The notes beneath the pieces are model-generated. The model was not told the DNA's origin, made no database searches, and was given only the letters and a program-made list of their open reading frames with translations. Below are positions 6,702 through 39,888 of a stretch of DNA of 41,548 nt, piece by piece (positions within the stretch are counted from its first letter, which is position 1; every line of letters begins with the position of its first letter). This stretch comes from a virus. The stretch covers positions 1 through 41,548 of the IMG/VR virus record IMGVR_UViG_3300030202_000338. One strand, given 5' to 3'. Made by a program: the position numbers and the translations under genes.

Positions 6702-6888
6702 TGAAATAGAGTGGGTATTTCCTTTTGAGAACATGAGTAAGGGGGAGAGTTTTTTTATACCTACTACTAAACCTTCTCCTATTTTGCATGCAATAGAATC
6801 AGGAGCTAAACGTGCTAACGTTAAAGTAAAAGTTTTTATTACTACTAAAAATAAATGTCTAGGAGTAAGAGCATGGAGACTTACTTAA
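6688..6888 (+). CDS. small conserved phage protein with CTG start
   Basis: A 66-codon frame overlaps the primase end by 14 nt. It reads DEIEWVFPFENMSKGESFFIP and ends GVRAWRLT, a pattern I recall from small phage proteins with an opening (W/F)-x-FPF, a G(E/D)SFFIP core and an R-(A/V)-WR end. Upstream of the first ATG (6733) the frame is open and the conserved-looking part is already present. CTG at 6688 has AAGGAG exactly 7 nt before it, so I choose that start. The stop overlaps by 8 nt the stop of the opposing 2295-aa gene. Function unknown. Confidence 0.65.
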   Translation: MNLHDEIEWVFPFENMSKGESFFIPTTKPSPILHAIESGAKRANVKVKVFITTKNKCLGVRAWRLT

Positions 6889-9800
6889 ATTTAAAATCAT
6901 AAAGAGGAACCCTTGCTTTTGTATCAGGGTCTATACCTTGAGAACGCACTAAATGTGGAGCCTTCGCTTCTAACTCCATAAGGATACGTCTTTTTTCTCT
7001 ATTAACTTCTTTTTTCTTTTCTTTTAATTGTTCATTTCTTTGTTTAGCATTTAGTCTTCTATCTTCTCTTATATTTCTTAATCCTTGTTGTAAGTCTCTA
7101 AGGTCTCCTCCTACGTTTTTATTCCATTCGTCTATTGCATCTTTAATAAACATGTTTTCAGGTTTAGCTAAAAATCTATCATATTTAAAATCAGATGGGT
7201 CGGTTTCTTGCATTTTTTTAAAAGTTTTTAATTTTTTTTCTGATGCATCTACTTTTTTTATTGCATCTGCCCAATCTCTAGGAGTTACTTCAGTTTGAGT
7301 AGATATAAAACTATCAAAAACCATACTAGCTTTTGACACACTATCTATGTTTTTTATTTGTTTACCTTTTATTATTAAATCAGCTTCATATAAATTTTGT
7401 AAAATTCTAGAGGGTCCATCTATAAAATTATTAGCAAGAAAATATAATACATCAGGGTTTATAGCATCTACAGTTTCGGTGCTGTCCGCGAACCATTTAG
7501 AAGCATCTTTATACATTTCAGGAGTATTGTCGCCGCCCGCGTAAGCTTGTCCGTATCTACTTGTTTCATTATAAATTCTAAAATCCATACCACTTACATT
7601 CATTTGTAATTCTATAAGAGGTCTTAAACTACTTGGCATAAGAGTATCAAAAGCAAAAGCTCCAGCTGATGCTGCATCTCTAGTAAAATCAATTCTAGAA
7701 ATTGGAATAGGCAAGAAAGAATCTAAAATAATTTCACCTATATTTCTTGCTACCTTTTTTCCTTCTGTATAACTAGAATCATCTAACGCTGCTAATTGAG
7801 CTCCTATAGATGCTAACCCTCCTAAACCAAAACCCCACGGAATTTGCAACATGTATTTACCTAAATCAAATCTTGAAAACCTTGTCCACCTTGCCATATC
7901 ATCAATATCTATTCTATTTCTTTCTTCTTCATCTTCTCCTCCCATAGCTTTAGACATATAATAAACAGCCGCTCCTAAACCCATAGTAGCCATAATTACT
8001 ATTGTGCCATTACGCATATCTCTTGTATAATTTTGTTCCCATGCAGCTAGCGCAGCCGGGTCATTTTTTATACTATCTGGAACTTGAGACTCCATCATTC
8101 CTCGCATTCCTCTAGCTCCTAATGGCATAGTTAAAGTTCTTAAAGCTGGACTAATTGCATCTAATGCTCTAACTGCACCTGTTGCTGCTGGTCTAAAGAA
8201 CATATAAAAAGCTCCTAACGTTTTACCCCATTCTCCAGTCTGTTCAAAATTTGCTAAATTTTTTGAATATGAAGCTGCTTCTTTTATAGCACTTTGTTCC
8301 GTGCTACCGTTAGCTATACGATTAGATTTAATAGCTTTGTATGCAGCTACTCTTACTGCTAACTCCATACTGTTTACAAATTTATCAAAAAAGTTTTTAA
8401 TACTATCTCTAGTTTGAAGTGTAATACCGCTTGGACCTTTGTTAGCTTTATTTACTATATCTTCAAGTTGAGTAGAGGTTGCAAGTGATTGTATGTAAGA
8501 AACATTTCCGCCTGCTTGTAAAAAATCAAACATATCTGCTGCTGTAGAACCTTTACCTTTTCTTTTTGCTAAAGACTCTAACTTTTTAATATCTCCATTT
8601 ACATATGCTCTTACTGCTTGATTTACTTGAGAAGCCTTTCCCATACCTATTATAAGTAAAGGGGATGATATAATTTGACCTGCAATTTCAAACGCATATC
8701 TAGGAACAGCTGCTGGATTTTCTGCGGCTATTATAAAAAAGTTAGTTAAAAAATCTCTTACAAAGTTTAAAACAGGAAAAGCTGGATTGTAACGAGTATG
8801 AAATTGACCAAATAAACTTGTAACACTATTCGCCCATTCTATTCCTCTTTCTATAACAGGACTCATTTGACTTATAGGTTCTCTAATAGCATTTAATAAT
8901 TTAGGATTATTTATTTGTACAATATCTACTGAACCATCATCTCGATAATGTAATATTTTATTTGTTCCTAATTTTTCTGGACTTAAAGCATCTTTATCTA
9001 TAAATTTATCTTTAAATTTAATATTTTCAACAACAGCGATACCATCAATATGACCTTGAGATATTGCATTTTGAATAGCTTCTGTTAAACCAGCTCTTCC
9101 TGCTCTAGCTGTTGAATGAATTGCATCCACAATAGTTTGAGTAACTCCATTTGCAGATTCGGATTGTCTACTTTCAAATCCTACAGGAACTTGTCGTAAA
9201 GCTGTACCTAATCTTTCTCCACTATAATTGTATTCTTCTAATAAAGCTTCTTGAGCTTCACTAGCTCCAGGCTTTCCTTTTAAAGGAATATAATTTTCAA
9301 ACCCATAAAACTCAATAATATTTTCTGAAAAGACATTACCATAATTACCCATTTTATTTAATTCTCTAGTTACTTTATGAACAGGTTGTTGAGCTGCTTG
9401 AACTGCATTAATTAATTCTTTTAGTTGAGGGTCAGCATTTATATAATCTCTTATATTTTGTTGAGTTTCAGATGGATATAAAGTTACATCATATAACTGA
9501 CTGTTTTTATTTAAAGCATCTGGGTTTCCTTTTACTTCAGCTCTAGGACTGGAACCATTTACATTTGCATACTGTGCAACAACAGTATTTAGATTATTTC
9601 TTAAAACCTTTATATCCGCCGCTGATAGATTAGAGTTACTACTTATTTCTTCAAGAGTATTTAATCTATATTGAGCAGGAGAAACTTTAGTTCCATCTAT
9701 CCAAGTTAAAATTTTACCTGTTGTTGTTTCGTCACCTAAAGGTACATTCTTAATAAAACTAATTTCTCTTCTTTCTGGTTCATGTAGGCTTTCTAAAAAT

Positions 9801-12800
9801 CTATGTAAGTCACTCATTGCTTCTGCTTCAGTTTTTCCTTGTGACTTTCTGTAGTTAAGATACTGACCAATAATTCTTTTATATGTATCTAATGCTGGTG
9901 CAAGGTCTTTTCGATATAAATAATCAGCTCTACCAAAAGTCATATCTAAAATAGTATTAACTGAATTTGTACCTTCTCCATCAAATATTAATTTATTAGC
10001 TCTTCGTAAAGAATCTTCTAATAATTTTAAAGGGGCTCTTTTATTTTGAAGTTTTTGTCGAGCAGTTTCTGCAACAGTTAATTGTCTTATTGCTGCAGTT
10101 AAAGGTTTTTCTTTTTCTAAATTTCTTTGTGCTTGTGTTTCATAAGTTTCTTGTAATATTTTTTCAACAGGTTTAGTAGTTGATTTTATTTTTTCCGCTT
10201 TTATTATTTCTTTTCGAGTATTTTTTTTACGGTTAGCTATCTCTTCTTTTGTTTTGCCTATATCTCTTTTTCTAAATACATCATCTCCATCGGCATCTTG
10301 TCCTTGTACTTTACGCTCTCTAAATCTAGTTTTTTCTCCTGCAATCCCTGCTAAACCAACTGCTTTATAATCAGCCCCTTTAAATCTTGCAGCGATAAAT
10401 TCATCAGGGTTTAATATAATATCTACTTGTGTAGCAATTGCGGCTAAACTAGAACTTGCATCTCTACTTTCAGTAAACCCTAAAGCCTTTATAAATGTAT
10501 TTTTTAAATTATCATAAATAGTTTGTAGTCTTTCAAAAAACCCTTGTTTCTTTTTAGCTTGGTTTTTTCTTACAGTAGGTGAAACTGTGCCATCTGCTCT
10601 TCTAGTTCTAAGTAATTGGTCTTGACTAATACCTCTTAATTTTTCTTGAAGAGATTCTTCTACAGTATTATTAAAACTTCCTTCAAAAATATATGCTACA
10701 AATTCATTAAGGTCATCTTCTTCTCTAAGACCAACAGGCATTTTTGCATTTAACGCTGCATCCTCTTGCCGTTTTTTAAATTCTTTTTCTGATTCTAAAG
10801 GAGCTTCTCTACGAACTACATTTCTACGAGCTTCTTGAGCATAAAATTTTCGTAGTTGATTGCGTATGTTTCTAATTTCTTTAACAGCTTTTCTTTGAGC
10901 AGGAGATATAGCTTGATTTATATCTTTCATTTCTGCTTTTTGTGCATTAGTTTTTGTTTTTAAATTACTTAAATAGTTATATCTAGAGGTGTTATCAATT
11001 ACATGGTCAAGCGAGGAGTGCATAGTTTCATGGAGTATAACGTTAGGTAAGTCTATTTTTTTAATATTAAAGTTACCATCAAGTAATTTAATATTAATTG
11101 TAATAAGATTGTTTGCTGGGTCAAATTGACCTGCTTCATTATTTTTTACATTTCCTGCTTGTATTTTAGTATTGCTATCTACAGCAAGTAATCTTTTAGC
11201 TATTGCTCCGTTAACTCCTAGCAAATTTGATATTTCATTTAACACTATTTTTATATCTATAGGAGGACCTGGGTTTCCATCATTATCTAGTAAAGCATTT
11301 AAAATATTACTAGCTGTTGTAACTTGGCGTTGTAAAACTGGGTCAACATTTTTCCCTTCTATATTTTTAATTCTTTGATTTGCTGACTCTTCATCTATTA
11401 AGTCTTGAGCATATTGTTCTACAGATAACCCAATTTGTGCAGCATAATCACGTTGAGTTTTTGTTAAATTTTTAATTTTTTTATTTAATTTTTTTCTATC
11501 TGTTGTCCCTTTTATTTCTTTAACTTCTTCTTTTATTTCTTCTTCATTTTTAACATCATCTATTCTTTGTTGTTTAGAAGTTTTTTTATCTACTGTAATT
11601 GTTTCAATTAATTTTTTGTTTTTATTTCTTTGAATTTTAAGTTTATTTTTAGCATTTTTGTCTAAAGTTTTTATGTATTCTTTTGCAGCTTTAACATCTT
11701 TCTTTATATTTTTATCTTTTAACTTTCCTTTGCCTTTAGCTTGTTTATATATTTTAGCTACTGTTTCTCTAAAACTTTTAGTTTGCAAAGCTTGAGGAAA
11801 AGTAATACCACTTTCTTGTTGTTTATCTCTTAAGTCTGGTCTTTGTCTATACAATACTGTTTTTAATTTTTTATCACTAAAAGTTTTATATTGAGGATTT
11901 TTAGGGTCGTTCTTAAGTTTTTTTAATTCTCTTTTTTGTTCTGCTGCTTTTTGTTTAAATATTTTATTTTCTTCTTTTTTAATTTTTTCATTAATTTTTG
12001 TTTCATCTATAGATTCAAAAGCTTCAAGCTCTAACATATAAGCTGCATCTTCAATTGCTTTTTGTTGAATTATTTCTTTGCTAGGTCTATCAGAAAAATT
12101 TATTTTTTTATCTTGTAAAGGACTTCTAGCAGCATATCTAGAACCAGATATTTCAAAGGGGTGTAATTTTAAATTATTATCTTTAGCATATTTTTTACCT
12201 TGAGCAGTTCTTTGTTCATATTCTACTGAAGGTATTTCATCAACAATTTCTTCTAGATTTAATGTATCAGACTCAGACTCTTCTGTTGTACTAAGTCGTC
12301 CAGTAACATCTGCAGGTGGTACCAATCCTCTTCCGTCAGATTGAGATTCAAGAGGCTGTCCGGGACCGGCTGCGCTATAGGGTCCTGACTGAGAAACTGT
12401 AGGGCTTGCTCCAGCTCCTGGAGCGACATCTGATTGAACACTGAGTTGCTCATCTTCGGTAATAACTGTTTCTTCTTGTCCATCTTGACCTCCTAATTTT
12501 TCTTGTAACTTACGTGCAAAATACTCACCCTGTGTTTCTCCTTGTAATTTATTTTTTTCATACTCTTTATCTAGTGCTTCAAACTCTTTTTCTTCTTTAG
12601 TTTTTTTAGCTTTAGGTTCAGCTTTAGGTTCAGCTTTAGGTTCAGCTTTAGCTTTAGGTTGTGATGCAGGTGGTACATTTATTTCAGGTATAGTAGAAGG
12701 TCCTGGTTCTCCTGTATCATCTATTTTATTTTGTTCTAATACTTCATCTATACGAGCTTGGTCTTCTTGTATAAATTGTCGTGACCTATTACTTACTAAA

Positions 12801-13768
12801 GTAGCACCACCACCCATTCCTATACCAGCTAATAGACCGGTAGCTGCTGATTCTCCTACCCCTTCCATAGGGTCTTTACCTAAAGCAACATTATTAAGAA
12901 TTTGTTCTTGCATAGACTGAGGCAGTTCCTCAAATACACCTTCAGTAACAGCAGCACGTACAGCATTATTTATAATGCCTCTTTTTGTGCCTTCTGCAAT
13001 ACCCTCTGCAAACAATACGTCAGCATCAATCACTCCTAATTTTTGAGCTACTTTAGCTCCAAAAGTACCAAGCACCCCAGTAAATATACCTGTTAAAGCA
13101 GAAAGTCCAGCTTGTTTACCACTTAAAGTTTGGTCTTCAGTTTGCCTTCTTATATCTGTAGCTTGTTGACCTGCTGATACAACTCCTTCTCCTACACCAG
13201 CACTTGCTGCATAATCAGCTACTTCTTTTCCATCTTTAGTTTTTCTTTTTAATTTGCCTAATTTAGTTAAACCTTGAGCAATCTTTGCTCCCCCTACCAT
13301 GCCAGGTATAGATTCAGCTACAGTACCTATTATAGTAGAAGGATTTCTAACCATAGCTTCAAAAGTTTCACCAAATCCTTCTGCTTCTGCAACTTCTTTT
13401 TCAGCTCTTAAACCTTGTTTTGAAGTGCCTTTATCTATAAATGCTTTAAGGTCTTCTGTAGTTCCTCCAAATAAATCTTCACTTACTGCATCAGCAGCTT
13501 TACCTACTCTACCTCCACTGACAATATCTCCTAGCCCAGTAACTGTGTCTACAAGACCAACAGCCCCTTTAGCTAAATCTATTCCTACGTCACTTATACG
13601 ACGAAAAGCAGAGTCATCTTCTTGTTGATTGGGTTCTATTTCGGGAGTTTGTTGTGATTTAAACTTAGGTAATATATCGTTAACAATAGCCGCTTCTATT
13701 TGTTGTGGTGTCATACCATCTTCAAATTCTACTATGCCCACTCCTTCAATGTTGACTGGTTGAGTCAT
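6881..13768 (-). CDS. giant internal virion polyprotein with zincin and LPD38-like domains
   Basis: A 2295-aa protein, by far the largest here. The N-terminus (VEFEDGMTPQQIEAAI...ILPKFK) is one I recall at the front of large phage virion proteins. Residues ~130-330 are Gly/Ala-rich and hydrophobic, then come a Pro/Ser/Glu linker (~350-520) and a long Lys-rich helical stretch. H913-E-T-M-H917 is an HExxH zinc-protease motif, and E1022 in LNEFVAYIF is a candidate third ligand. Residues ~1640-1950 (FHTRYNPAFPVLNFVRD ... FYMFFRPAATGAV) match the LPD38 polyvalent-protein type. The C-terminus is charged and helical. It is likely packaged in the capsid and ejected with the DNA to help cross the envelope. 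It is the last gene of the virion operon. Confidence 0.8.
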   Translation of the reverse strand: MTQPVNIEGVGIVEFEDGMTPQQIEAAIVNDILPKFKSQQTPEIEPNQQEDDSAFRRISDVGIDLAKGAVGLVDTVTGLGDIVSGGRVGKAADAVSEDLFGGTTEDLKAFIDKGTSKQGLRAEKEVAEAEGFGETFEAMVRNPSTIIGTVAESIPGMVGGAKIAQGLTKLGKLKRKTKDGKEVADYAASAGVGEGVVSAGQQATDIRRQTEDQTLSGKQAGLSALTGIFTGVLGTFGAKVAQKLGVIDADVLFAEGIAEGTKRGIINNAVRAAVTEGVFEELPQSMQEQILNNVALGKDPMEGVGESAATGLLAGIGMGGGATLVSNRSRQFIQEDQARIDEVLEQNKIDDTGEPGPSTIPEINVPPASQPKAKAEPKAEPKAEPKAKKTKEEKEFEALDKEYEKNKLQGETQGEYFARKLQEKLGGQDGQEETVITEDEQLSVQSDVAPGAGASPTVSQSGPYSAAGPGQPLESQSDGRGLVPPADVTGRLSTTEESESDTLNLEEIVDEIPSVEYEQRTAQGKKYAKDNNLKLHPFEISGSRYAARSPLQDKKINFSDRPSKEIIQQKAIEDAAYMLELEAFESIDETKINEKIKKEENKIFKQKAAEQKRELKKLKNDPKNPQYKTFSDKKLKTVLYRQRPDLRDKQQESGITFPQALQTKSFRETVAKIYKQAKGKGKLKDKNIKKDVKAAKEYIKTLDKNAKNKLKIQRNKNKKLIETITVDKKTSKQQRIDDVKNEEEIKEEVKEIKGTTDRKKLNKKIKNLTKTQRDYAAQIGLSVEQYAQDLIDEESANQRIKNIEGKNVDPVLQRQVTTASNILNALLDNDGNPGPPIDIKIVLNEISNLLGVNGAIAKRLLAVDSNTKIQAGNVKNNEAGQFDPANNLITINIKLLDGNFNIKKIDLPNVILHETMHSSLDHVIDNTSRYNYLSNLKTKTNAQKAEMKDINQAISPAQRKAVKEIRNIRNQLRKFYAQEARRNVVRREAPLESEKEFKKRQEDAALNAKMPVGLREEDDLNEFVAYIFEGSFNNTVEESLQEKLRGISQDQLLRTRRADGTVSPTVRKNQAKKKQGFFERLQTIYDNLKNTFIKALGFTESRDASSSLAAIATQVDIILNPDEFIAARFKGADYKAVGLAGIAGEKTRFRERKVQGQDADGDDVFRKRDIGKTKEEIANRKKNTRKEIIKAEKIKSTTKPVEKILQETYETQAQRNLEKEKPLTAAIRQLTVAETARQKLQNKRAPLKLLEDSLRRANKLIFDGEGTNSVNTILDMTFGRADYLYRKDLAPALDTYKRIIGQYLNYRKSQGKTEAEAMSDLHRFLESLHEPERREISFIKNVPLGDETTTGKILTWIDGTKVSPAQYRLNTLEEISSNSNLSAADIKVLRNNLNTVVAQYANVNGSSPRAEVKGNPDALNKNSQLYDVTLYPSETQQNIRDYINADPQLKELINAVQAAQQPVHKVTRELNKMGNYGNVFSENIIEFYGFENYIPLKGKPGASEAQEALLEEYNYSGERLGTALRQVPVGFESRQSESANGVTQTIVDAIHSTARAGRAGLTEAIQNAISQGHIDGIAVVENIKFKDKFIDKDALSPEKLGTNKILHYRDDGSVDIVQINNPKLLNAIREPISQMSPVIERGIEWANSVTSLFGQFHTRYNPAFPVLNFVRDFLTNFFIIAAENPAAVPRYAFEIAGQIISSPLLIIGMGKASQVNQAVRAYVNGDIKKLESLAKRKGKGSTAADMFDFLQAGGNVSYIQSLATSTQLEDIVNKANKGPSGITLQTRDSIKNFFDKFVNSMELAVRVAAYKAIKSNRIANGSTEQSAIKEAASYSKNLANFEQTGEWGKTLGAFYMFFRPAATGAVRALDAISPALRTLTMPLGARGMRGMMESQVPDSIKNDPAALAAWEQNYTRDMRNGTIVIMATMGLGAAVYYMSKAMGGEDEEERNRIDIDDMARWTRFSRFDLGKYMLQIPWGFGLGGLASIGAQLAALDDSSYTEGKKVARNIGEIILDSFLPIPISRIDFTRDAASAGAFAFDTLMPSSLRPLIELQMNVSGMDFRIYNETSRYGQAYAGGDNTPEMYKDASKWFADSTETVDAINPDVLYFLANNFIDGPSRILQNLYEADLIIKGKQIKNIDSVSKASMVFDSFISTQTEVTPRDWADAIKKVDASEKKLKTFKKMQETDPSDFKYDRFLAKPENMFIKDAIDEWNKNVGGDLRDLQQGLRNIREDRRLNAKQRNEQLKEKKKEVNREKRRILMELEAKAPHLVRSQGIDPDTKARVPLYDFKFK
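12259..12483 (-). CDS. possible nested (overprinted) 74-aa ORF
   Basis: Inside the 2295-aa gene, in another frame of the same strand, an ATG at 12483 is preceded by a perfect AGGAGG (12489-12494) with a 5-nt spacer. The product has leucine-rich amphipathic stretches (SLQELEQALQFL, EEDWYHLQMLLDDL) and looks like a folded small protein rather than a frame shadow. The host frame here is a Pro/Ser/Gly-rich linker, which tolerates overprinting. The AGGAGG also encodes Gly-Gly in the main frame, so the site may be coincidence. Confidence 0.28.
   Translation of the reverse strand: MDKKKQLLPKMSNSVFNQMSLQELEQALQFLSQDPIAQPVPDSLLNLNLTEEDWYHLQMLLDDLVQQKSLSLIH
12602..12655 (-). repeat. short tandem repeat (Ala-Glu-Pro-Lys coding)
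   Basis: Near-identical 12-bp units (TTTAGGTTCAGC on the + strand) encode a KAEPKAEPKAEPKA run in the linker of the 2295-aa protein. This looks like a slippage-generated flexible or charged hinge. Confidence 0.8.
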
Positions 13769-13773
13769 AGTGA

Positions 13774-15675
13774 TTATTTTATACCTGTTGTAAGGCCATC
13801 TCTTGGATTATATGTGCCAATAGCTTGAGGATTTGGACCAGGAGGTCTTACTCCTCCACCTCTATTTGCAAAATCTTGCATTAATTTTTGTCGTGTCATA
13901 TTAAGGTCATTATTATTTTGTATATGTGTTCGAGCAAGAATAGCACTGTCTTTACCAAACTTACTATAAAATTCTATAGCTGCCTCTTCATAAGGTATGT
14001 TTTTGCTAGTTTCTATGGCTCTAATTTGATTATCTCTTTTTCTCCAATTTGCAAATTCATTAGCCGAACCAAACACTTGTTCTACAGCTATTTCATATGA
14101 TTTATCAATTGCTCCGGTCTGAGCAGTACTATAAGCATCATAATATTTAGCTTCAGCTTTAGCTTTTACACCAAGAGCTTTATAATAAGGTCTTTTTATA
14201 TTTATTTCTTCTTGCTTTAACATATCTGCATTTTTCTGTAAGGTCTTTTTCATATTCATTAATTCTGTTTTTGCTTCAACATCTGCACCTAATTTAGCTT
14301 TATTAGTACGTTCAATATTATCTAGTTTAGCTATTTCAAATTCATGTTTTCTTTGTTGTTTTTTTAAGTTTTCTATTTTAGTCATGTCTGTGTTTACATC
14401 TTTACCTGCTGCTACAGCAGCATCACCAAGACGACCTGTTTTAGCTAACTCACTACCAAAGTTAAATATCATTCTACCCATCATAAATTTCTTACCATCT
14501 TCTATTTCTTGTCCGGTTTCTTCTTGAAATTTTTCAGCTATTGCTGTAAATGGGTTTACACCCATACGTCTTTCATAGGCTGCAACTGCTGCATCACCTT
14601 CCTCTATAGCTTCTTTAGGTTCATATACAGAAGTATCTACTACACCTGTATCAAATACAGCACCTTCAAAATCACGGTCTAATTCTTTATCATCTTTTTT
14701 AAAGGCTAGATTTTCTTGTTCTAAAAGTTTATTTATTTTATCTCTTTCTTTATTTTTATCTATTTCTATATCTTCTTCTGTAATATCTTTAATTTTAATA
14801 TCTTCTTCTGAACCTTTTTTAGTAGGCTCTTTTTTTAACTTTCCAGTAGATTCTTCAATTACACTATCTACATCTAACTTTTTACCTCCTACTCCTAAAT
14901 CTTCATCTGTCATTTTAAAAGCACTATATACATCCATATCCCCTGCTTCTAAATCTTTATCAACTCTAAAAGGACTAACTTCTTCTAGTGATGATTTAAA
15001 ATCTACGTCTTGTAATTTTTTAGGAGAAGCAGTTTTCATTTTATTTTGAAAGTCTAATCTTTTTATATAGTCCTCTCTTACACCGTCAGGTAATGCCATT
15101 ACTTGGTCTTTTGTTAAACTAAAATCGGTAAAGCTGTCTGTATAAGGTCTAGCGTCAGGGTCAAATCTATTTACAATCCCTCGTTCTTTATATCCAATAA
15201 TACCGCCGTCAGCGAAGTTAGGTACATACCCACCTGCTGCTGCCATCATAGGGATACCAGTTCCCATCCTCTGCTGAGGTGGAACTCTTCTAGGCATTGG
15301 AGGTTTTTGAAGTCCAGCCATTTGTCCTGGCATAGGTCTTGGCATAGGTCTTGGTTGACCTTGTTGAATACCTTGAGGCATCATAGGATTCATAGGAGGT
15401 CTCATAGCCATATCAGCTTCAGTAATAGTTTCTTCAAGTACAGATTGTTGTGGGCCTTGAGCTTCAGCTTGTTGCTTTTGTTCCCATTTTCTATGGTCAA
15501 GAGCAGCCAAAATACTTGTAGTGGGAAGTTGAGGGTTTACTCTTTCTTTTAAATACTTTTGCACCACCACTTCTGTAGGTATAGCATAGTTACCTGTACT
15601 AGGGTCTTTTGCATTTATATCTTCCATAGTTTCTTGTATGGATAAAACTTCTTCAATACCTTTACCGTAAGCCAT
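13774..15675 (-). CDS. internal virion protein, Pro/Met-rich N-terminal part
   Basis: A 633-aa protein of the virion operon. It starts with a small helical segment (GIEEVLSIQETMEDI), followed by a Pro/Met/Gln-rich tract at ~90-145 (RPMPRPMPGQM, PPMPRRVPPQQ) and a glycine motif AAGGYVPNFADGGIIGYKE near 150. The middle is very acidic and lysine-rich with predicted coiled coil (~270-340), and a long helical segment at ~440-510 follows. The glycine motif resembles one in the 616-aa protein (LVADGGYIKGYKGGG). Between an Ala/Gln-rich virion protein and the giant polyprotein, it is most likely a core or ejection protein. No enzymatic motif is visible. Confidence 0.65.
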   Translation of the reverse strand: MAYGKGIEEVLSIQETMEDINAKDPSTGNYAIPTEVVVQKYLKERVNPQLPTTSILAALDHRKWEQKQQAEAQGPQQSVLEETITEADMAMRPPMNPMMPQGIQQGQPRPMPRPMPGQMAGLQKPPMPRRVPPQQRMGTGIPMMAAAGGYVPNFADGGIIGYKERGIVNRFDPDARPYTDSFTDFSLTKDQVMALPDGVREDYIKRLDFQNKMKTASPKKLQDVDFKSSLEEVSPFRVDKDLEAGDMDVYSAFKMTDEDLGVGGKKLDVDSVIEESTGKLKKEPTKKGSEEDIKIKDITEEDIEIDKNKERDKINKLLEQENLAFKKDDKELDRDFEGAVFDTGVVDTSVYEPKEAIEEGDAAVAAYERRMGVNPFTAIAEKFQEETGQEIEDGKKFMMGRMIFNFGSELAKTGRLGDAAVAAGKDVNTDMTKIENLKKQQRKHEFEIAKLDNIERTNKAKLGADVEAKTELMNMKKTLQKNADMLKQEEINIKRPYYKALGVKAKAEAKYYDAYSTAQTGAIDKSYEIAVEQVFGSANEFANWRKRDNQIRAIETSKNIPYEEAAIEFYSKFGKDSAILARTHIQNNNDLNMTRQKLMQDFANRGGGVRPPGPNPQAIGTYNPRDGLTTGIK

Positions 15676-27443: not shown

Positions 27444-28592
27444 TTACATCTCCGCACTAAAATTAAATCTTGCAGCTGTACTATTATTAACAAACATTAA
27501 TGCTGCATATCCTATTGTTGATGACCCACCACTAACAGTAGCTGAAAAACTGTATGTTTGTGTTGCAGATTGGTCAACAGAAAAAGATGCAGTTGCTAAA
27601 TTACTACTTCCTGCTTTAGTTAAAAAAGTACCTGATGTGCTTAATGTAGGAGCTGACCTCATTTTTACTGGTAGTTCTGCTCTTAATAACGGAGTAGTTG
27701 TTCCAGTAAACATTCCATGAGCAATAAATTCATAAGCAGCTGTACCACCTAAACTATAAAAATATCTTTGACACAAAAGCATTTGTTGTCCAAATTGTAA
27801 GTATTCAAAATTGCTAGCTCCTGAACCAGTTTGCAATTGCACTCCTGTAACATAAAAAGTTGCACTATTTGTAGCAATTACATTTGTTTGCCCAGTAACT
27901 CCTTCTTTTGCTGAGGAACCCCATGAGCCAGCAGATGCTAACAAAGTACTTCCTGCACCTAAACTAAAGTTTAGTCTTATTCCTATACTAGTGTTGGTAT
28001 ACCATGTTCCTGATGTATCCCCAGTAATAGTTACTGTTTTGTATTCCCAAGTGTCTGCTACTGATATAGTATAAGAAAATACATTAAATCTATCATAGTC
28101 ACCATTAGCTACTGAACCACCAAATGTTCCTGTTACACTTGAACGAACCCAAAAAGATAAAGTTACTGACTGTGCATCTGAAGTCCCCCAGTTAAGGTCT
28201 GCTATATTATTACCCTCAATCATTTGTTGGACTCTATAAGAAGACCCGCTAGCAATAGAGCTATCTGCTGTAGTAACTGTTGCTTTTAAAGAGTTTGTAA
28301 AATTTGCTGGTGAAGTTGTATCTTGAGCTAACGTAAATACTCCAGCAGAAGCAACTCCTCTACCTAACCATCTATCAACATTATAAGTAACACTTGTTGC
28401 ATTAATAGTAGCTGTACCATCTCTTTGGTCTACTCTCATATCACCATTAATAATTTTATTTAAAGCAGTTTGCGAAGCACTAGTAACAGTCATAACAGTT
28501 GTACCATTTGACTGAAACTCTAAGATTCCTGAAGAATCTCCTTCAATAGCTACTCCGCCAGAACCTGTTAATGCATTAATTTTTGAAGTCAT
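27444..28592 (-). CDS. tail fibre/carbohydrate-binding-like protein
   Basis: A 382-aa beta-rich protein. The first ~40 residues (TSKINALTGSGGVAIEGDSS, ILEFQSNGTTVMTVTSAS) are a fibre attachment motif. From ~45 (NKIINGDMRVDQRDGTATIN, VDRWLGRG) it reads as a carbohydrate-binding jelly-roll, with VTLSFWVRSSVTGTFGGSV, WEYKTVTITGDTSG, and FYVTGVQLQTGSGASNFEYL near 245-265; the last is a signature I recall from phage fibre receptor-binding modules. Probably a receptor-binding fibre. Confidence 0.72.
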   Translation of the reverse strand: MTSKINALTGSGGVAIEGDSSGILEFQSNGTTVMTVTSASQTALNKIINGDMRVDQRDGTATINATSVTYNVDRWLGRGVASAGVFTLAQDTTSPANFTNSLKATVTTADSSIASGSSYRVQQMIEGNNIADLNWGTSDAQSVTLSFWVRSSVTGTFGGSVANGDYDRFNVFSYTISVADTWEYKTVTITGDTSGTWYTNTSIGIRLNFSLGAGSTLLASAGSWGSSAKEGVTGQTNVIATNSATFYVTGVQLQTGSGASNFEYLQFGQQMLLCQRYFYSLGGTAAYEFIAHGMFTGTTTPLLRAELPVKMRSAPTLSTSGTFLTKAGSSNLATASFSVDQSATQTYSFSATVSGGSSTIGYAALMFVNNSTAARFNFSAEM

Positions 28593-30913: not shown

Positions 30914-32341
30914 TTAAATCTCCTTAATATCGGCGTGTGACGCGCCGGATTCTAAAATATGACGTAATAACCCGCCGTATATCTCTAATTCAATCTCATC
31001 CCCTAGCATTTGTATCAAACTCATAAACTCTTGAGCTTGCGATACCATCCAAGGGTTACAGTTAAATATTTTTCCGCTCACGTTTACGGGCATAACTGCT
31101 TGTCCATCATTTTCTACTTGTTCATATGCGTGATGCTTATCGTCTTCACCTAAACATGAATCACAGCCAAATAAGTGAAAACGTTTAAATCCTAACATTC
31201 TAAACAATGGTATAGCTCTTAATAGTACAGTTGACCCTCCGGGAACTGACCACCATGTTTCATATTGCTTGTCTAGTATATCTTTTAATAATTCTGCTTG
31301 AGTGTGCCATACATAAGTTCTATCTTTTGGCAAACCCTTAAATACACTAGGATTGCATTGTGAAGCTATAAAATACTTACATTCCTCAACTACAGGTTCT
31401 GTAAATCTTGCATTAAATTCGCGTGCATCTACCATGACCATAGCAGAAGGAGTTAAACCATTGTCAATACACCATTTATAGGCGTTATTAATTGTTATAA
31501 GTTTAACACCATTTTGCCTCAATTGCTTGATTTTTTCAAGGTGTTCTGTTACAGATGGTCCACCTCCTACAATCATTACCTCAATATCATTAGTTGGATG
31601 AGGTTCTACTTGCGAATATCCTTGTTTTATATTGTGCTTAACATTCTTTTTTATTTGTTCATCATTAGTATTTACAGTGCCTGCATCCACTATTTCTTCG
31701 CCACTAGCCCAATTACTTACATAAAATAAACAAGTGTTTTTTGTTTTTTGTGACCAATGTATTACACATTTATGTTCTTTAAATTTTTGTAACCACCACT
31801 TATAAGGGTGCACACTTAAATGTAATTTATGCCCTACTAAAACTCCTGCTTTGTCATCAACTGTAGATATTTGAAAAAATACGTGTTGACAAGCAGATAA
31901 ACAATTATCTATAACTTGGTCTACATGATGTGGTCTTATGTGTTCCATCACGTCAGTACAAAAACCATAAGCTGCTTGAACAGGTAAAGGTTGAGATAAA
32001 TCAGCTTCTACAAACTTTAATGCATGCTTTTGTGTTTCTAGCATAGGAACTATATCTTTATCTAAGCAGTTATCTGCAAAGTCAACCATAGTTACATCTA
32101 GTCCACCAAAGAACGCTAAGTTTAATCCTCCACGTCCTGTACCACATCCTAAATCAAGAACTGTAGCGCCAGCTTTAGGTTTTGCTTGTTTTAAAAATTC
32201 ATGAGATATTTGTTCACCAGGAGCAACTTGTCTATACTCTGGTCTATCCCACATCATTTTATATAAATCTTTTTCTAAAGGTCTTACGCTATCTACTGTT
32301 ACTTCTGGTGCATCTGCAATAAGAGATGAAAATCCTGTCAT
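30914..32341 (-). CDS. methyltransferase-DUF115 (MptE/Maf-like) fusion
   Basis: A 475-aa two-domain protein. Residues ~45-215 form a class I SAM methyltransferase with motif I VLDLGCGTGR (61-70), an acidic residue in VTMVDF (D87), and a VMEHIRPHHVDQVI helix near 131-144. Residues ~250-470 are a DUF115/6-hydroxymethylpterin-diphosphokinase-like (MptE, Maf flagellin-glycosylation) domain: VMIVGGGPSV (255-264), LITINNAYKWCIDNGLTPSA, MVMVDAR, GSTVLLRAIPLFRMLGFKRF and FGCDSC. Maf relatives transfer sugars such as pseudaminic acid. Lying between two related virion genes, it might modify surface glycans or virion proteins. The domain calls are good; the substrate is unknown. Confidence 0.78.
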   Translation of the reverse strand: MTGFSSLIADAPEVTVDSVRPLEKDLYKMMWDRPEYRQVAPGEQISHEFLKQAKPKAGATVLDLGCGTGRGGLNLAFFGGLDVTMVDFADNCLDKDIVPMLETQKHALKFVEADLSQPLPVQAAYGFCTDVMEHIRPHHVDQVIDNCLSACQHVFFQISTVDDKAGVLVGHKLHLSVHPYKWWLQKFKEHKCVIHWSQKTKNTCLFYVSNWASGEEIVDAGTVNTNDEQIKKNVKHNIKQGYSQVEPHPTNDIEVMIVGGGPSVTEHLEKIKQLRQNGVKLITINNAYKWCIDNGLTPSAMVMVDAREFNARFTEPVVEECKYFIASQCNPSVFKGLPKDRTYVWHTQAELLKDILDKQYETWWSVPGGSTVLLRAIPLFRMLGFKRFHLFGCDSCLGEDDKHHAYEQVENDGQAVMPVNVSGKIFNCNPWMVSQAQEFMSLIQMLGDEIELEIYGGLLRHILESGASHADIKEI

Positions 32342-37546: not shown

Positions 37547-37960
37547 TTAAGCTGTACGTGTAATAGTATAAGCAGTAGCACTACTAAATAATAAAGTATA
37601 TCGTGCCATACCTCTAACGCCTGAGGCAATAGTTAAATCACCAAAAGAGGCTGCAGTAGTATTACCAGCGTCTGATACAATTGCGTTAGTACTAACAACC
37701 ATTGTTACTGTGTTAGCGCCACCGGTGTTATCAACTACTAAATCAAAAACTGTCCCTGCAGTTGCTTGTAATTCAGCGCCTAAAAGAGTCCCAGTTGGAA
37801 ATGTAATACTTGTTCCTGCTGCAGATGTTGATGTAATATATCCTGTAGCTACTTCGGCTGCGGTTGCTACTGCAGTTGCGTTAATAGCTGCGGAGGTAGC
37901 GTGGTCGGATAGAAAGCCGCTTTGTGATACGACTGGTCCCGAAAATGTGGTTCTTGCCAT
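37547..37960 (-). CDS. capsid decoration/head-fibre-like protein
   Basis: A 137-aa protein starting ARTTFSGPVVSQSGFLSD, an opening I recall from capsid-adjacent proteins of marine phages. The rest is Ala/Thr-rich and beta (GYITSTSAAGTSITFPTGTL, AELQATAGTVFDLVVDNTGG, ARYTLLFSSATAYTITRTA). GGAG lies 7 nt before the ATG. The ~120 nt upstream hold a candidate structured leader and then the pqqA terminator, so it begins a new transcription or regulation block. Confidence 0.62.
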   Translation of the reverse strand: MARTTFSGPVVSQSGFLSDHATSAAINATAVATAAEVATGYITSTSAAGTSITFPTGTLLGAELQATAGTVFDLVVDNTGGANTVTMVVSTNAIVSDAGNTTAASFGDLTIASGVRGMARYTLLFSSATAYTITRTA

Positions 37961-38076: not shown

Positions 38077-38099
38077 CAAAAAAGGGGCCGAAGCCCCTT
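38077..38099 (-). terminator. rho-independent terminator after pqqA
   Basis: On the - strand AAGGGGC-TTCG-GCCCCTT forms a 7-bp GC-rich stem with a UUCG tetraloop (38082-38099), followed by a six-T run (38078-38083 in + coordinates, overlapping the stem base). It begins 17 nt after the pqqA stop codon and is a textbook intrinsic terminator. Confidence 0.9.
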
Positions 38100-38115: not shown

Positions 38116-38190
38116 TTACTTGTTCATTACGTACATTGTTACTTCAAAACCGAAACGCATTTCAGTTGCTGATGGTTTAGTCCAAGCCAT
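38116..38190 (-). CDS. pqqA: PqqA, pyrroloquinoline quinone precursor peptide
   Basis: A 24-aa peptide, too short for normal ORF calling. Its sequence follows the PqqA family (PF08042) almost throughout: WTKP at residues 3-6, then RFGFEVTMY at 12-20. E16 and Y20 form the invariant Glu-x3-Tyr pair. In known PQQ biosynthesis PqqD presents PqqA to the radical-SAM enzyme PqqE, which joins Glu to Tyr; trimming and oxidation by other Pqq proteins make the redox cofactor of alcohol, methanol and sugar dehydrogenases. ATG at 38190 has AAGGAG (38198-38203) with a 7-nt spacer. No pqqB-F gene is in the window, so host enzymes would be needed. Confidence 0.88.
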   Translation of the reverse strand: MAWTKPSATEMRFGFEVTMYVMNK

Positions 38191-38214
38191 GGTGTTTCTC
38201 CTTTATATTAGATT

Positions 38215-38240
38215 TCAGCATTGCTGATACAAATATTATA
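38215..38240 (-). promoter_or_regulatory. putative pqqA promoter with operator-like palindrome
   Basis: Exact TATAAT (38235-38240, - strand) lies 45 nt before the pqqA ATG; the -35 region is weak. At the expected start of transcription is an interrupted palindrome TCAGCA-A-TGCTGA (38215-38227), which could be a repressor site or a short 5' hairpin. The gap between the holin-like gene and pqqA (38191-38279) contains nothing else recognisable. Confidence 0.45.
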
Positions 38241-38279: not shown

Positions 38280-38621
38280 TTATCCCAACTTATCAAGTGC
38301 TTGCGATACTTTGCGTTCCATCATAGGTATAAGTCTCATACCACTATATCCAATAAAGAAAGCTATGGCTGGTGAGAAGGTTATATGAAGACCAAATTGA
38401 TTAATAATAGGCGGTACAAAAAATTCAGCTGATATAGCTGCAATAAATACAGATAACATAAATTCTATACGAGCACGTTTACGTTCTACAAGCCAATTAA
38501 TATGCCCACCACGAGGCACTTTGCCTTTGGCTTTTTTAACATTATAATTACAGAAACCTCCTAATACAGACGCAACCATACATACAACGCTAACTCCAAA
38601 CATATCAATTAAATACTGCAT
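38280..38621 (-). CDS. small membrane protein, possible holin (LydA-like)
   Basis: A 113-aa protein with three hydrophobic segments: FGVSVVCMVASVLGGFCNY (~8-26), FMLSVFIAAISAEFFVPPI (~54-72) and ITFSPAIAFFIGYSGMRLIP (~80-99). A basic loop (KKAKGKVPRGGHINW, ~29-43) lies between the first two. The plan and the final FxGYSGMRL motif resemble superfamily III/LydA-type phage holins. It overlaps the lipoprotein gene by 17 nt, so the two are probably co-translated. It could time lysis together with, or antagonise, the 3TM holin. Confidence 0.62.
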   Translation of the reverse strand: MQYLIDMFGVSVVCMVASVLGGFCNYNVKKAKGKVPRGGHINWLVERKRARIEFMLSVFIAAISAEFFVPPIINQFGLHITFSPAIAFFIGYSGMRLIPMMERKVSQALDKLG

Positions 38622-38886
38622 ATCTGTCCTCGATTATAATACAGCCTTCGGCTTCCATGCATGGATAGTCAGAATACATTTTACCGCTACATGCATTGCC
38701 TGTTATTCTTCTTGGTCTAGATTTTAATGTATCTATTATTATTTCTGTACTAGATTTTTTATCAGCTATTAAAGCTCCAGCGTCATATATATTTTTGCTT
38801 CTGTCTATAAATTGATAATACTCATTGTGTATAAAATATGTACACCCTGATAAAAAGAAACTTAATAGTAATGCCCATTTAATCAT
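38605..38886 (-). CDS. small lipoprotein
   Basis: A 93-aa protein with a lipoprotein signal: IKWALLLSFFLSGC, lipobox LSGC with Cys15 as the predicted lipidation site. The mature part (TYFIHNEYYQFIDRSKNIYD ... NACSGKMYSDYPCMEAEGC) has three further cysteines and an acidic end. Together with the adjacent holin-like gene it suggests an envelope or lysis function (outer-membrane spanin subunit, superinfection block). It lacks the proline-rich body usual in Rz1 proteins. An exact TATAAT (38895-38900) sits 9 nt ahead. Confidence 0.65.
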   Translation of the reverse strand: MIKWALLLSFFLSGCTYFIHNEYYQFIDRSKNIYDAGALIADKKSSTEIIIDTLKSRPRRITGNACSGKMYSDYPCMEAEGCIIIEDRYAVFN

Positions 38887-38958: not shown

Positions 38959-39888
38959 TTAAGCACCTGGTGAACCCCACATACCTAAAGGGTCTGACCA
39001 ACCAAATGAATATCTTTCACGGGCTTTGTATCTTACATTACCTGTGTCAAAATCACCGTCCATAGATGTTGTTAAAGCAGTTCTTTCAAAATGCTTCATA
39101 CCATTAGGAACGTCGGTTGTTAAGAAATAAGCGTCAGCATCAGTTAAATAGTGGTTTATTGTATAACCTTCTGGAATTGCACCATTATTTCTCAATGCGT
39201 TAAGGTCGTTATCAGCTGTACCAACACGAAGTTGAGTATCTAATAAACGAGTAGCAACGAATTGTAATGCTGGTGGAATTACTAGCTTACGAGGTTTAGC
39301 TGCAATTAATAGACCTCTTTCATCTGTCCACGCTGCGATTTGAATCACTGCGTTTTCTAATGCTGTTTCGTTAAGGTCTGTTGCAACTGCTTGTACGTTA
39401 CTGTTAGTACCACCTGAAACTAATGGGTGGTTAGTAACTGCACCACCAGCGGCTGTACCAAATAGTGAACGTGCGTCACCACCTAAGAAAGCACCGTTGA
39501 AGCCATTGTTTAAAACGTTAGCTGCACGAACTTGCTTAGTATTTGCCATTGAACGAGCAAGAGCTTTAGTATAACGAGCTGAAAGACTATCATATAGATT
39601 ATCCTCAACCGCTTCTTCAGTTAAACTGAATCCTAAAGCAATTGTTACGTGATTATATCTAGCTGTAAAAGCTTCTTGTGCGTTGTCATACGCAATAGCT
39701 GCTCCCTCAGTTTTAAGAGGTGCACCTGCAAAGCCTGCTAGTTTTGTTTCTTCTTCAAAAGAACGGTCTGAAGACTCGGTCTCATAAAGTTCTTTATGCT
39801 CTTCGCCATATTTTTCATACTCTAAACCAAATAAAGCGTTAAGTCCTGGTAATAGCTCCTTAAGGAGCTGGGCTCTTGAAATTGCCAT
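38959..39888 (-). CDS. major capsid protein (HK97-fold)
   Basis: A 309-aa capsid subunit, expected to build the icosahedral shell. Recognisable blocks: LLKELLPGLNALFGLEYEKY at the N-terminus, SDRSFEEETKLAGFAGAPLK (~39-58), TARYNHVTIALGFSLTEEAV (~74-93), DNLYDSLSARYTKALARSMA (~95-114), KQVRAANVLNNGFNGAFLGG, and RKLVIPPALQFVATRLLDTQ (~200-220), finishing YSFGWSDPLGMWGSPGA. The order matches Mu gpT/HK97-like major head proteins of marine phages. No N-terminal protease domain is fused. It is followed directly by a terminator, consistent with high expression. Confidence 0.9.
   Translation of the reverse strand: MAISRAQLLKELLPGLNALFGLEYEKYGEEHKELYETESSDRSFEEETKLAGFAGAPLKTEGAAIAYDNAQEAFTARYNHVTIALGFSLTEEAVEDNLYDSLSARYTKALARSMANTKQVRAANVLNNGFNGAFLGGDARSLFGTAAGGAVTNHPLVSGGTNSNVQAVATDLNETALENAVIQIAAWTDERGLLIAAKPRKLVIPPALQFVATRLLDTQLRVGTADNDLNALRNNGAIPEGYTINHYLTDADAYFLTTDVPNGMKHFERTALTTSMDGDFDTGNVRYKARERYSFGWSDPLGMWGSPGA

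Follow-up and report, generated by a model that had tools for sequence, protein, structure and literature searches.

A stand-alone pqqA gene in a podovirus of putative Methylophilaceae hosts and its probable role in supplying the PQQ precursor peptide

Why should a virus encode the precursor peptide of PQQ and none of the enzymes that act on it? The question is raised by a frame of 24 codons and a TAA stop (38116-38190, minus strand) in a 41,548-nucleotide stretch of viral DNA, referred to here as the window, which with a further 1.1 kb makes up the 42,689-bp IMG/VR virus record IMGVR_UViG_3300030202_000338. The translation, MAWTKPSATEMRFGFEVTMYVMNK, had been assigned to PqqA in a first-pass annotation made from the DNA alone, and hmmscan confirms that it is a true PqqA, with scores against PF08042 (E = 2.8e-11, 43.5 bits, cut-off 21.1) and the equivalog model TIGR02107 (E = 2.7e-10, 39.8 bits, cut-off 20) that are about twice the cut-offs and far from noise level. 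At 24 aa and with the ribosome binding site AAAGGAG, the frame falls within the size range of PqqA (about 22-29 aa, with a ribosome binding site). The E-x-x-x-Y motif is present as E16-V-T-M-Y20, with Glu and Tyr three residues apart and numbered as previously assigned, and this is the pair described, as established biochemistry, as being joined by PqqE (PMC7936290, PMC9851590). A chance frame was rejected on the basis of the two model scores and of a loose PqqA-like pattern, which matched once in the window and in none of 200 Markov-simulated windows. The peptide has no family in PHROGs and no similar chain in the PDB.

The gene appears to form a self-contained cassette, as read from the signals around it. 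The Shine-Dalgarno sequence (38198-38204, minus strand) lies just before the ATG, and an intrinsic terminator (AAGGGGC-TTCG-GCCCCTT plus a T-run; 38078-38099, minus strand) follows directly after the gene, its GC-rich hairpin of 7 bp (38099-38082) lying 16 nt past the stop. A TATAAT hexamer 45-50 nt upstream (38235-38240, minus strand), with no clear -35 element, is the candidate -10 of what is probably the cassette's own promoter. Similar signals recur among the viral pqqA genes described below. A terminator occurs within 110 nt in 70 of the 143 genes listed, where about one is expected from shuffled sequences, and TATAAT is found no more than 120 nt upstream in 54 of the 142 listed (28 expected), mostly at 35-60 nt. 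Sigma-70 promoters with a -35 element showed no clear excess over shuffles, and the TATAAT cluster alone stands out.

The window virus is a podovirus. Its record encodes a major head protein, tail fibres, a holin-like protein, a helicase, a ssDNA-binding protein and a primase/helicase, and pqqA sits among genes of this kind (capsid, tail fibre, holin-like, helicase). Immediately upstream is a 113-aa membrane protein with a weak holin match (38280-38621, minus strand), followed by a 93-aa protein (38605-38886, minus strand) and the major head protein (38959-39888, minus strand), and on the far side of pqqA relatives also conserve the downstream neighbour, a protein beginning MARTTFSGPV (37547-37960, minus strand). 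Mis-binned host DNA was rejected as an explanation for both the window and the phage isolates, in which phage genes surround pqqA. The head protein shares 61-63% identity with those of the Pelagibacter phages HTVC023P and HTVC027P and 53% with those of the Roseobacter phages CRP-901/902. These phages share the capsid lineage of the window virus, infect hosts outside the Methylophilaceae and have no pqqA found in their records. Since the genomes of these capsid relatives measure 52-61 kb, the 42,689-bp record may be incomplete. Elsewhere in the window, a 2295-aa protein (6881-13768, minus strand), occupying one sixth of the record, shows weak similarity to DarB-like antirestriction proteins, and a 475-aa protein near the tail genes (30914-32341, minus strand) combines a methyltransferase domain with an MptE-like domain (PF01973).

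A position next to pqqBCDE, which is common for pqqA but does not define it, is not seen for the window gene. Queries with the PqqB, C, D, E and XoxF proteins of OM43 returned no match, either in the window or in the 1.1 kb with which the record ends, and pqqE was not found in the whole 42,689-bp record. Given its possible incompleteness, the absence of other pqq genes rests also on complete relatives, and a search of 37 virus records with pqqA, each taken whole and with complete isolates among them, gave no pqqE above the cut-off; three weak matches in virus records (17-28 bits) lie far below the cut-off. Nor do PqqB-E or XoxF occur beside any viral pqqA, with the exception of one Acinetobacter contig. 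The earlier reading of a peptide gene carried without any other pqq gene is thus borne out by the window record and by the pqqE result for all 37.

The tail fibre of the window (27444-28592, minus strand) provides a link to the host, as 0.7 kb of it (27755-28461) shares 81% DNA identity with the tail fibre gene of Venkman, a phage isolated on the OM43 strain H5P1. A tblastn search for PqqA across 50,697 phage records identified pqqA in nine records of Methylophilaceae phages (Venkman, P19250A, MEP301, MEP401, MEP402 and four Melnitz records), the other matches being one spring-water podovirus contig and two Acinetobacter contigs. These OM43/LD28 phages share the orphan pqqA with the window virus, while belonging to other phage lineages in which the gene occurs in other contexts. 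The evidence thus points to Methylophilaceae (OM43 and relatives) as hosts of the window virus; the methylotroph part of the original host suggestion stands, and its SAR116/roseobacter part does not. A Pseudomonas-type PqqA query retrieved the same twelve records, and the queries matched no phage isolate of a non-methylotroph; phages of other PQQ makers therefore lack pqqA at this sensitivity. The Acinetobacter contig that was opened, 'Acinetobacter phage MD-2021a' (CAKLQF020000010.1), carries a complete, chromosomal pqqABCDE operon and a polyphosphate kinase, and was rejected as a phage. In the nine isolate records the gene is either unannotated or overlapped by an annotated opposite-strand ORF, none being annotated as pqqA, and no pqq gene is mentioned in the publications that describe Venkman, MEP301, Melnitz and MEP401/402.

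Metagenomic viruses extend this distribution considerably. Two DNA pattern scans of IMG/VR, the second specifying only the N-terminal half of the peptide, gave at least 120 matches each, and pqqA was found on more than 120 IMG/VR contigs, most viral pqqA contigs having no recorded host. After dereplication, at least 146 distinct viral genes coding for 72 different peptides remained. The window peptide is nearly identical to PqqA of the Methylophilaceae (OM43, Methylopumilus, Methylotenera), with which it shares length, the Glu and Tyr residues, the GFEVTMY core and the VMNK end. With this host metabolic homologue and its place among virus genes, the window gene is a candidate phage auxiliary metabolic gene. 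The peptide MWTTPAATEMRFGFEVTMYVMNK is the commonest PqqA peptide in hosts and in phages among the matches listed.

All 120 Methylophilaceae genomes examined contain the gene, 113 of them in 2-12 copies, in keeping with an earlier report of multi-copy pqqA in this family (PMC4109929); twelve copies were counted in a single genome (G038, G120). When the PQQ pathway was looked for in candidate hosts, as had been recommended, OM43 LSUCC0665 was found to encode a pqqBCDE operon that lacks pqqA, with three pqqA copies at a distance. As the host gene is itself unlinked from pqqBCDE, the stand-alone phage gene copies the host arrangement; it differs from the host gene in its phage neighbours, in often having its own terminator and in residing in a genome without pqqBCDE. 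In the methanotroph OB3b, expression of a stand-alone pqqA reached 11857-13927 as against 161-372 for pqqBCDE, some 30-85 times as much (PMC3615186), so that a high dosage of the peptide is usual in a methylotroph, and a study cited in PMC9851590 describes one dominant pqqA among several in Methylovorus.

With pqqA so short and so abundant in the hosts, the phage gene could be a chance passenger, acquired from the host, that persists neutrally, or a homology patch serving attachment or recombination in the multi-copy host genes. The identity of phage and host peptides would fit such an origin, as would the presence or absence of the gene in the same slot among relatives. The pattern of divergence speaks for a maintained protein instead. 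Glu and Tyr are retained in all 145 aligned viral pqqA genes, and in 120 of 120 chosen on the N-terminal half alone among the matches listed, so that the loss of E16 or Y20 in phage relatives that had been proposed as a check was not observed. Across the 145, invariance extends to the core residues W, P, R, G, F, E, T and Y. For the same genes pN/pS is about 0.19 and dN/dS about 0.11, the latter being a rough value, as dS is near saturation, and one that leans low, as part of the set was found by a pattern fixing GFEVTMY. The frames are intact, with 23-25 codons and a Shine-Dalgarno-like motif, in all 146 viral genes listed. Selection, judged from these alignments, is keeping the peptide while the DNA is not kept, and this divergence of the synonymous sites speaks against a relic, an attachment site, which would conserve DNA and not codons, and an RNA role. 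A passenger or patch is consequently very unlikely, and the earlier view of the gene as a conserved working substrate, not a relic, is upheld by the invariant Glu/Tyr pair and the low dN/dS.

The gene also appears to have moved between phages. When 3.9-kb stretches were compared, MEP301 matched MEP401/402, P19250A or the spring-water contig only in the pqqA region, over 70-80 nt at 81-84% identity. Loci were grouped by neighbour families, single-linkage clustering by shared proteins being uninformative since it joined nearly all of them. Among the loci listed, 63 families occur upstream of viral pqqA and 68 downstream, with both neighbours antiparallel to it in 42 of 122 cases. In the lineage of the window virus, most relatives that have pqqA carry it 150-200 nt downstream of the major head gene, this slot being empty or otherwise filled in other relatives; in the window, two small genes intervene between head gene and pqqA. 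From such a position next to the capsid gene, pqqA may be strongly expressed late in infection. Prevalence by TerL lineage ranges from five of six (Venkman) through six of 16 (MEP301) to one of nine (MEP402), and in the window-capsid lineage three of 15 carry the gene. Among relatives of the window helicase, it is present in all three sizeable records with at least 70% identity and absent from the 34 that are more distant. The gene is also missing from a 42.8-kb record whose TerL is 95% identical to that of MEP402. This close relative and the lineage-variable prevalence indicate that pqqA is not essential, and universal carriage by relatives of the Methylophilaceae phage isolates is not supported, given that some close relatives lack it.

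The first-pass annotation had offered a boost to PQQ-dependent methanol oxidation through peptide supply, a decoy, or the start of another modified product as possible roles, and the first of these is favoured. It is considered likely that the window carries a functional phage pqqA, a self-contained cassette in a Methylophilaceae podovirus, whose peptide would sustain host PQQ and methanol dehydrogenase. During infection, extra PqqA would be made from the phage gene, host PqqD would present it to host PqqE, which would join Glu16 to Tyr20, and a host protease, PqqB and PqqC would complete PQQ. One PqqA is spent for each PQQ, while PqqB-E are catalytic and would still be there once transcription is under phage control, and this difference would explain why the phage brings the peptide alone: once host transcription is shut down, the peptide would be the first component lost. 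The PQQ so formed would keep methanol dehydrogenase (XoxF), and hence the energy supply, going during phage replication. Cyanophages that carry psbA replace only the fast-turning D1 protein. By analogy, the pqqA phages would deliver just the one component with the fastest consumption in the host, the two cases involving different pathways and non-homologous genes. A counterpoint is that the hosts already hold several pqqA copies, so that the need for a phage copy is not obvious. In Acetobacter, overexpression of pqqAB raised PQQ by only 29% and that of the full operon eightfold (PMC7936290); the peptide alone need not be limiting, and the limit may differ by host.

The decoy, in which the phage peptide would occupy PqqD/PqqE and block or drain PQQ synthesis to the harm of the host or of rival phages, could account for a lone peptide without enzymes, as expected of a competitor. 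An inhibitor would have no reason to retain both reacting residues, which are invariant, and the commonest phage peptides are host peptides, which makes them substrates; a decoy is accordingly very unlikely. PqqA is a RiPP precursor that another radical SAM enzyme could in principle use, but a different modified product is scarcely credible, as the phages bring no enzyme for the modification (nothing of the PqqE radical SAM type exceeds the cut-off in the 37 records), the two residues that react do not vary, and the agreement with host PqqA spans the full length, C-terminus included. A gene acting mainly as RNA, such as a short regulatory or sponge transcript, would suit the very short, strongly terminated unit and the upstream TATAAT cluster, and is equally hard to credit in view of the selection on the peptide through wide synonymous change and the Shine-Dalgarno motif in every copy listed.

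Peptide supply as the favoured role invites a broader reading, towards which we lean with less assurance, in which stand-alone pqqA would be the metabolic gene that methylotroph phages commonly carry: a unit of promoter, gene and terminator spanning little over 100 nt, mobile between unrelated phages and placed in highly expressed spots, for instance after the capsid gene, that feeds host PQQ by replacing only the consumed peptide and forms the methylotroph counterpart of cyanophage psbA. Under this reading the gene would have been overlooked because gene callers skip 23-codon frames. Phage pqqA is not new as an idea. The Lake Baikal phage population VP_266, a T4-like Methylophilaceae phage, encodes PqqA together with methanol dehydrogenase, and its authors proposed a boost to PQQ and methanol oxidation (PMC7678222); a reservoir study listed viral pqqA among P-cycling genes (PMC13188868). 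The window virus shares an encoded PqqA with VP_266, a single metagenomic case, but is a podovirus in which neither mdh nor another pqq gene was found. What appears unreported in searchable papers is the occurrence of pqqA, in the absence of mdh, across unrelated groups of phages, all Methylophilaceae isolates found among them, together with its self-contained form, invariant reacting residues, host link and match to the multi-copy layout of the hosts.

If the broader reading is correct, a large share of the phages that kill the main methanol users of seas and lakes would bring a cofactor substrate rather than an enzyme, and phage infection would be tied to methanol turnover. Peptide supply may be the shared limit to which both the many pqqA copies of the hosts and those of the phages respond, and very short, mostly unannotated genes could be recurrent phage metabolic genes. 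Cultured phage-host pairs (Venkman and Melnitz on H5P1; MEP301; MEP401/402) make a direct test possible. Viral PqqA peptides of a different type (MWTKPTYE.IRLGFEVTMYFKN., MKWETP...) were observed at the loci L011, L020, L025, L031, L032, L035 and L086, and possibly belong to phages of hosts outside the Methylophilaceae. Five IMG/VR contigs (L694-L698) encode an orphan pqqA of alphaproteobacterial type, MKWSAPIVQEVCVGMEVTSYDSAEIDTFN being one such peptide, and no pqqB-E lies in its vicinity; phages of other methylotrophs may carry orphan pqqA likewise.
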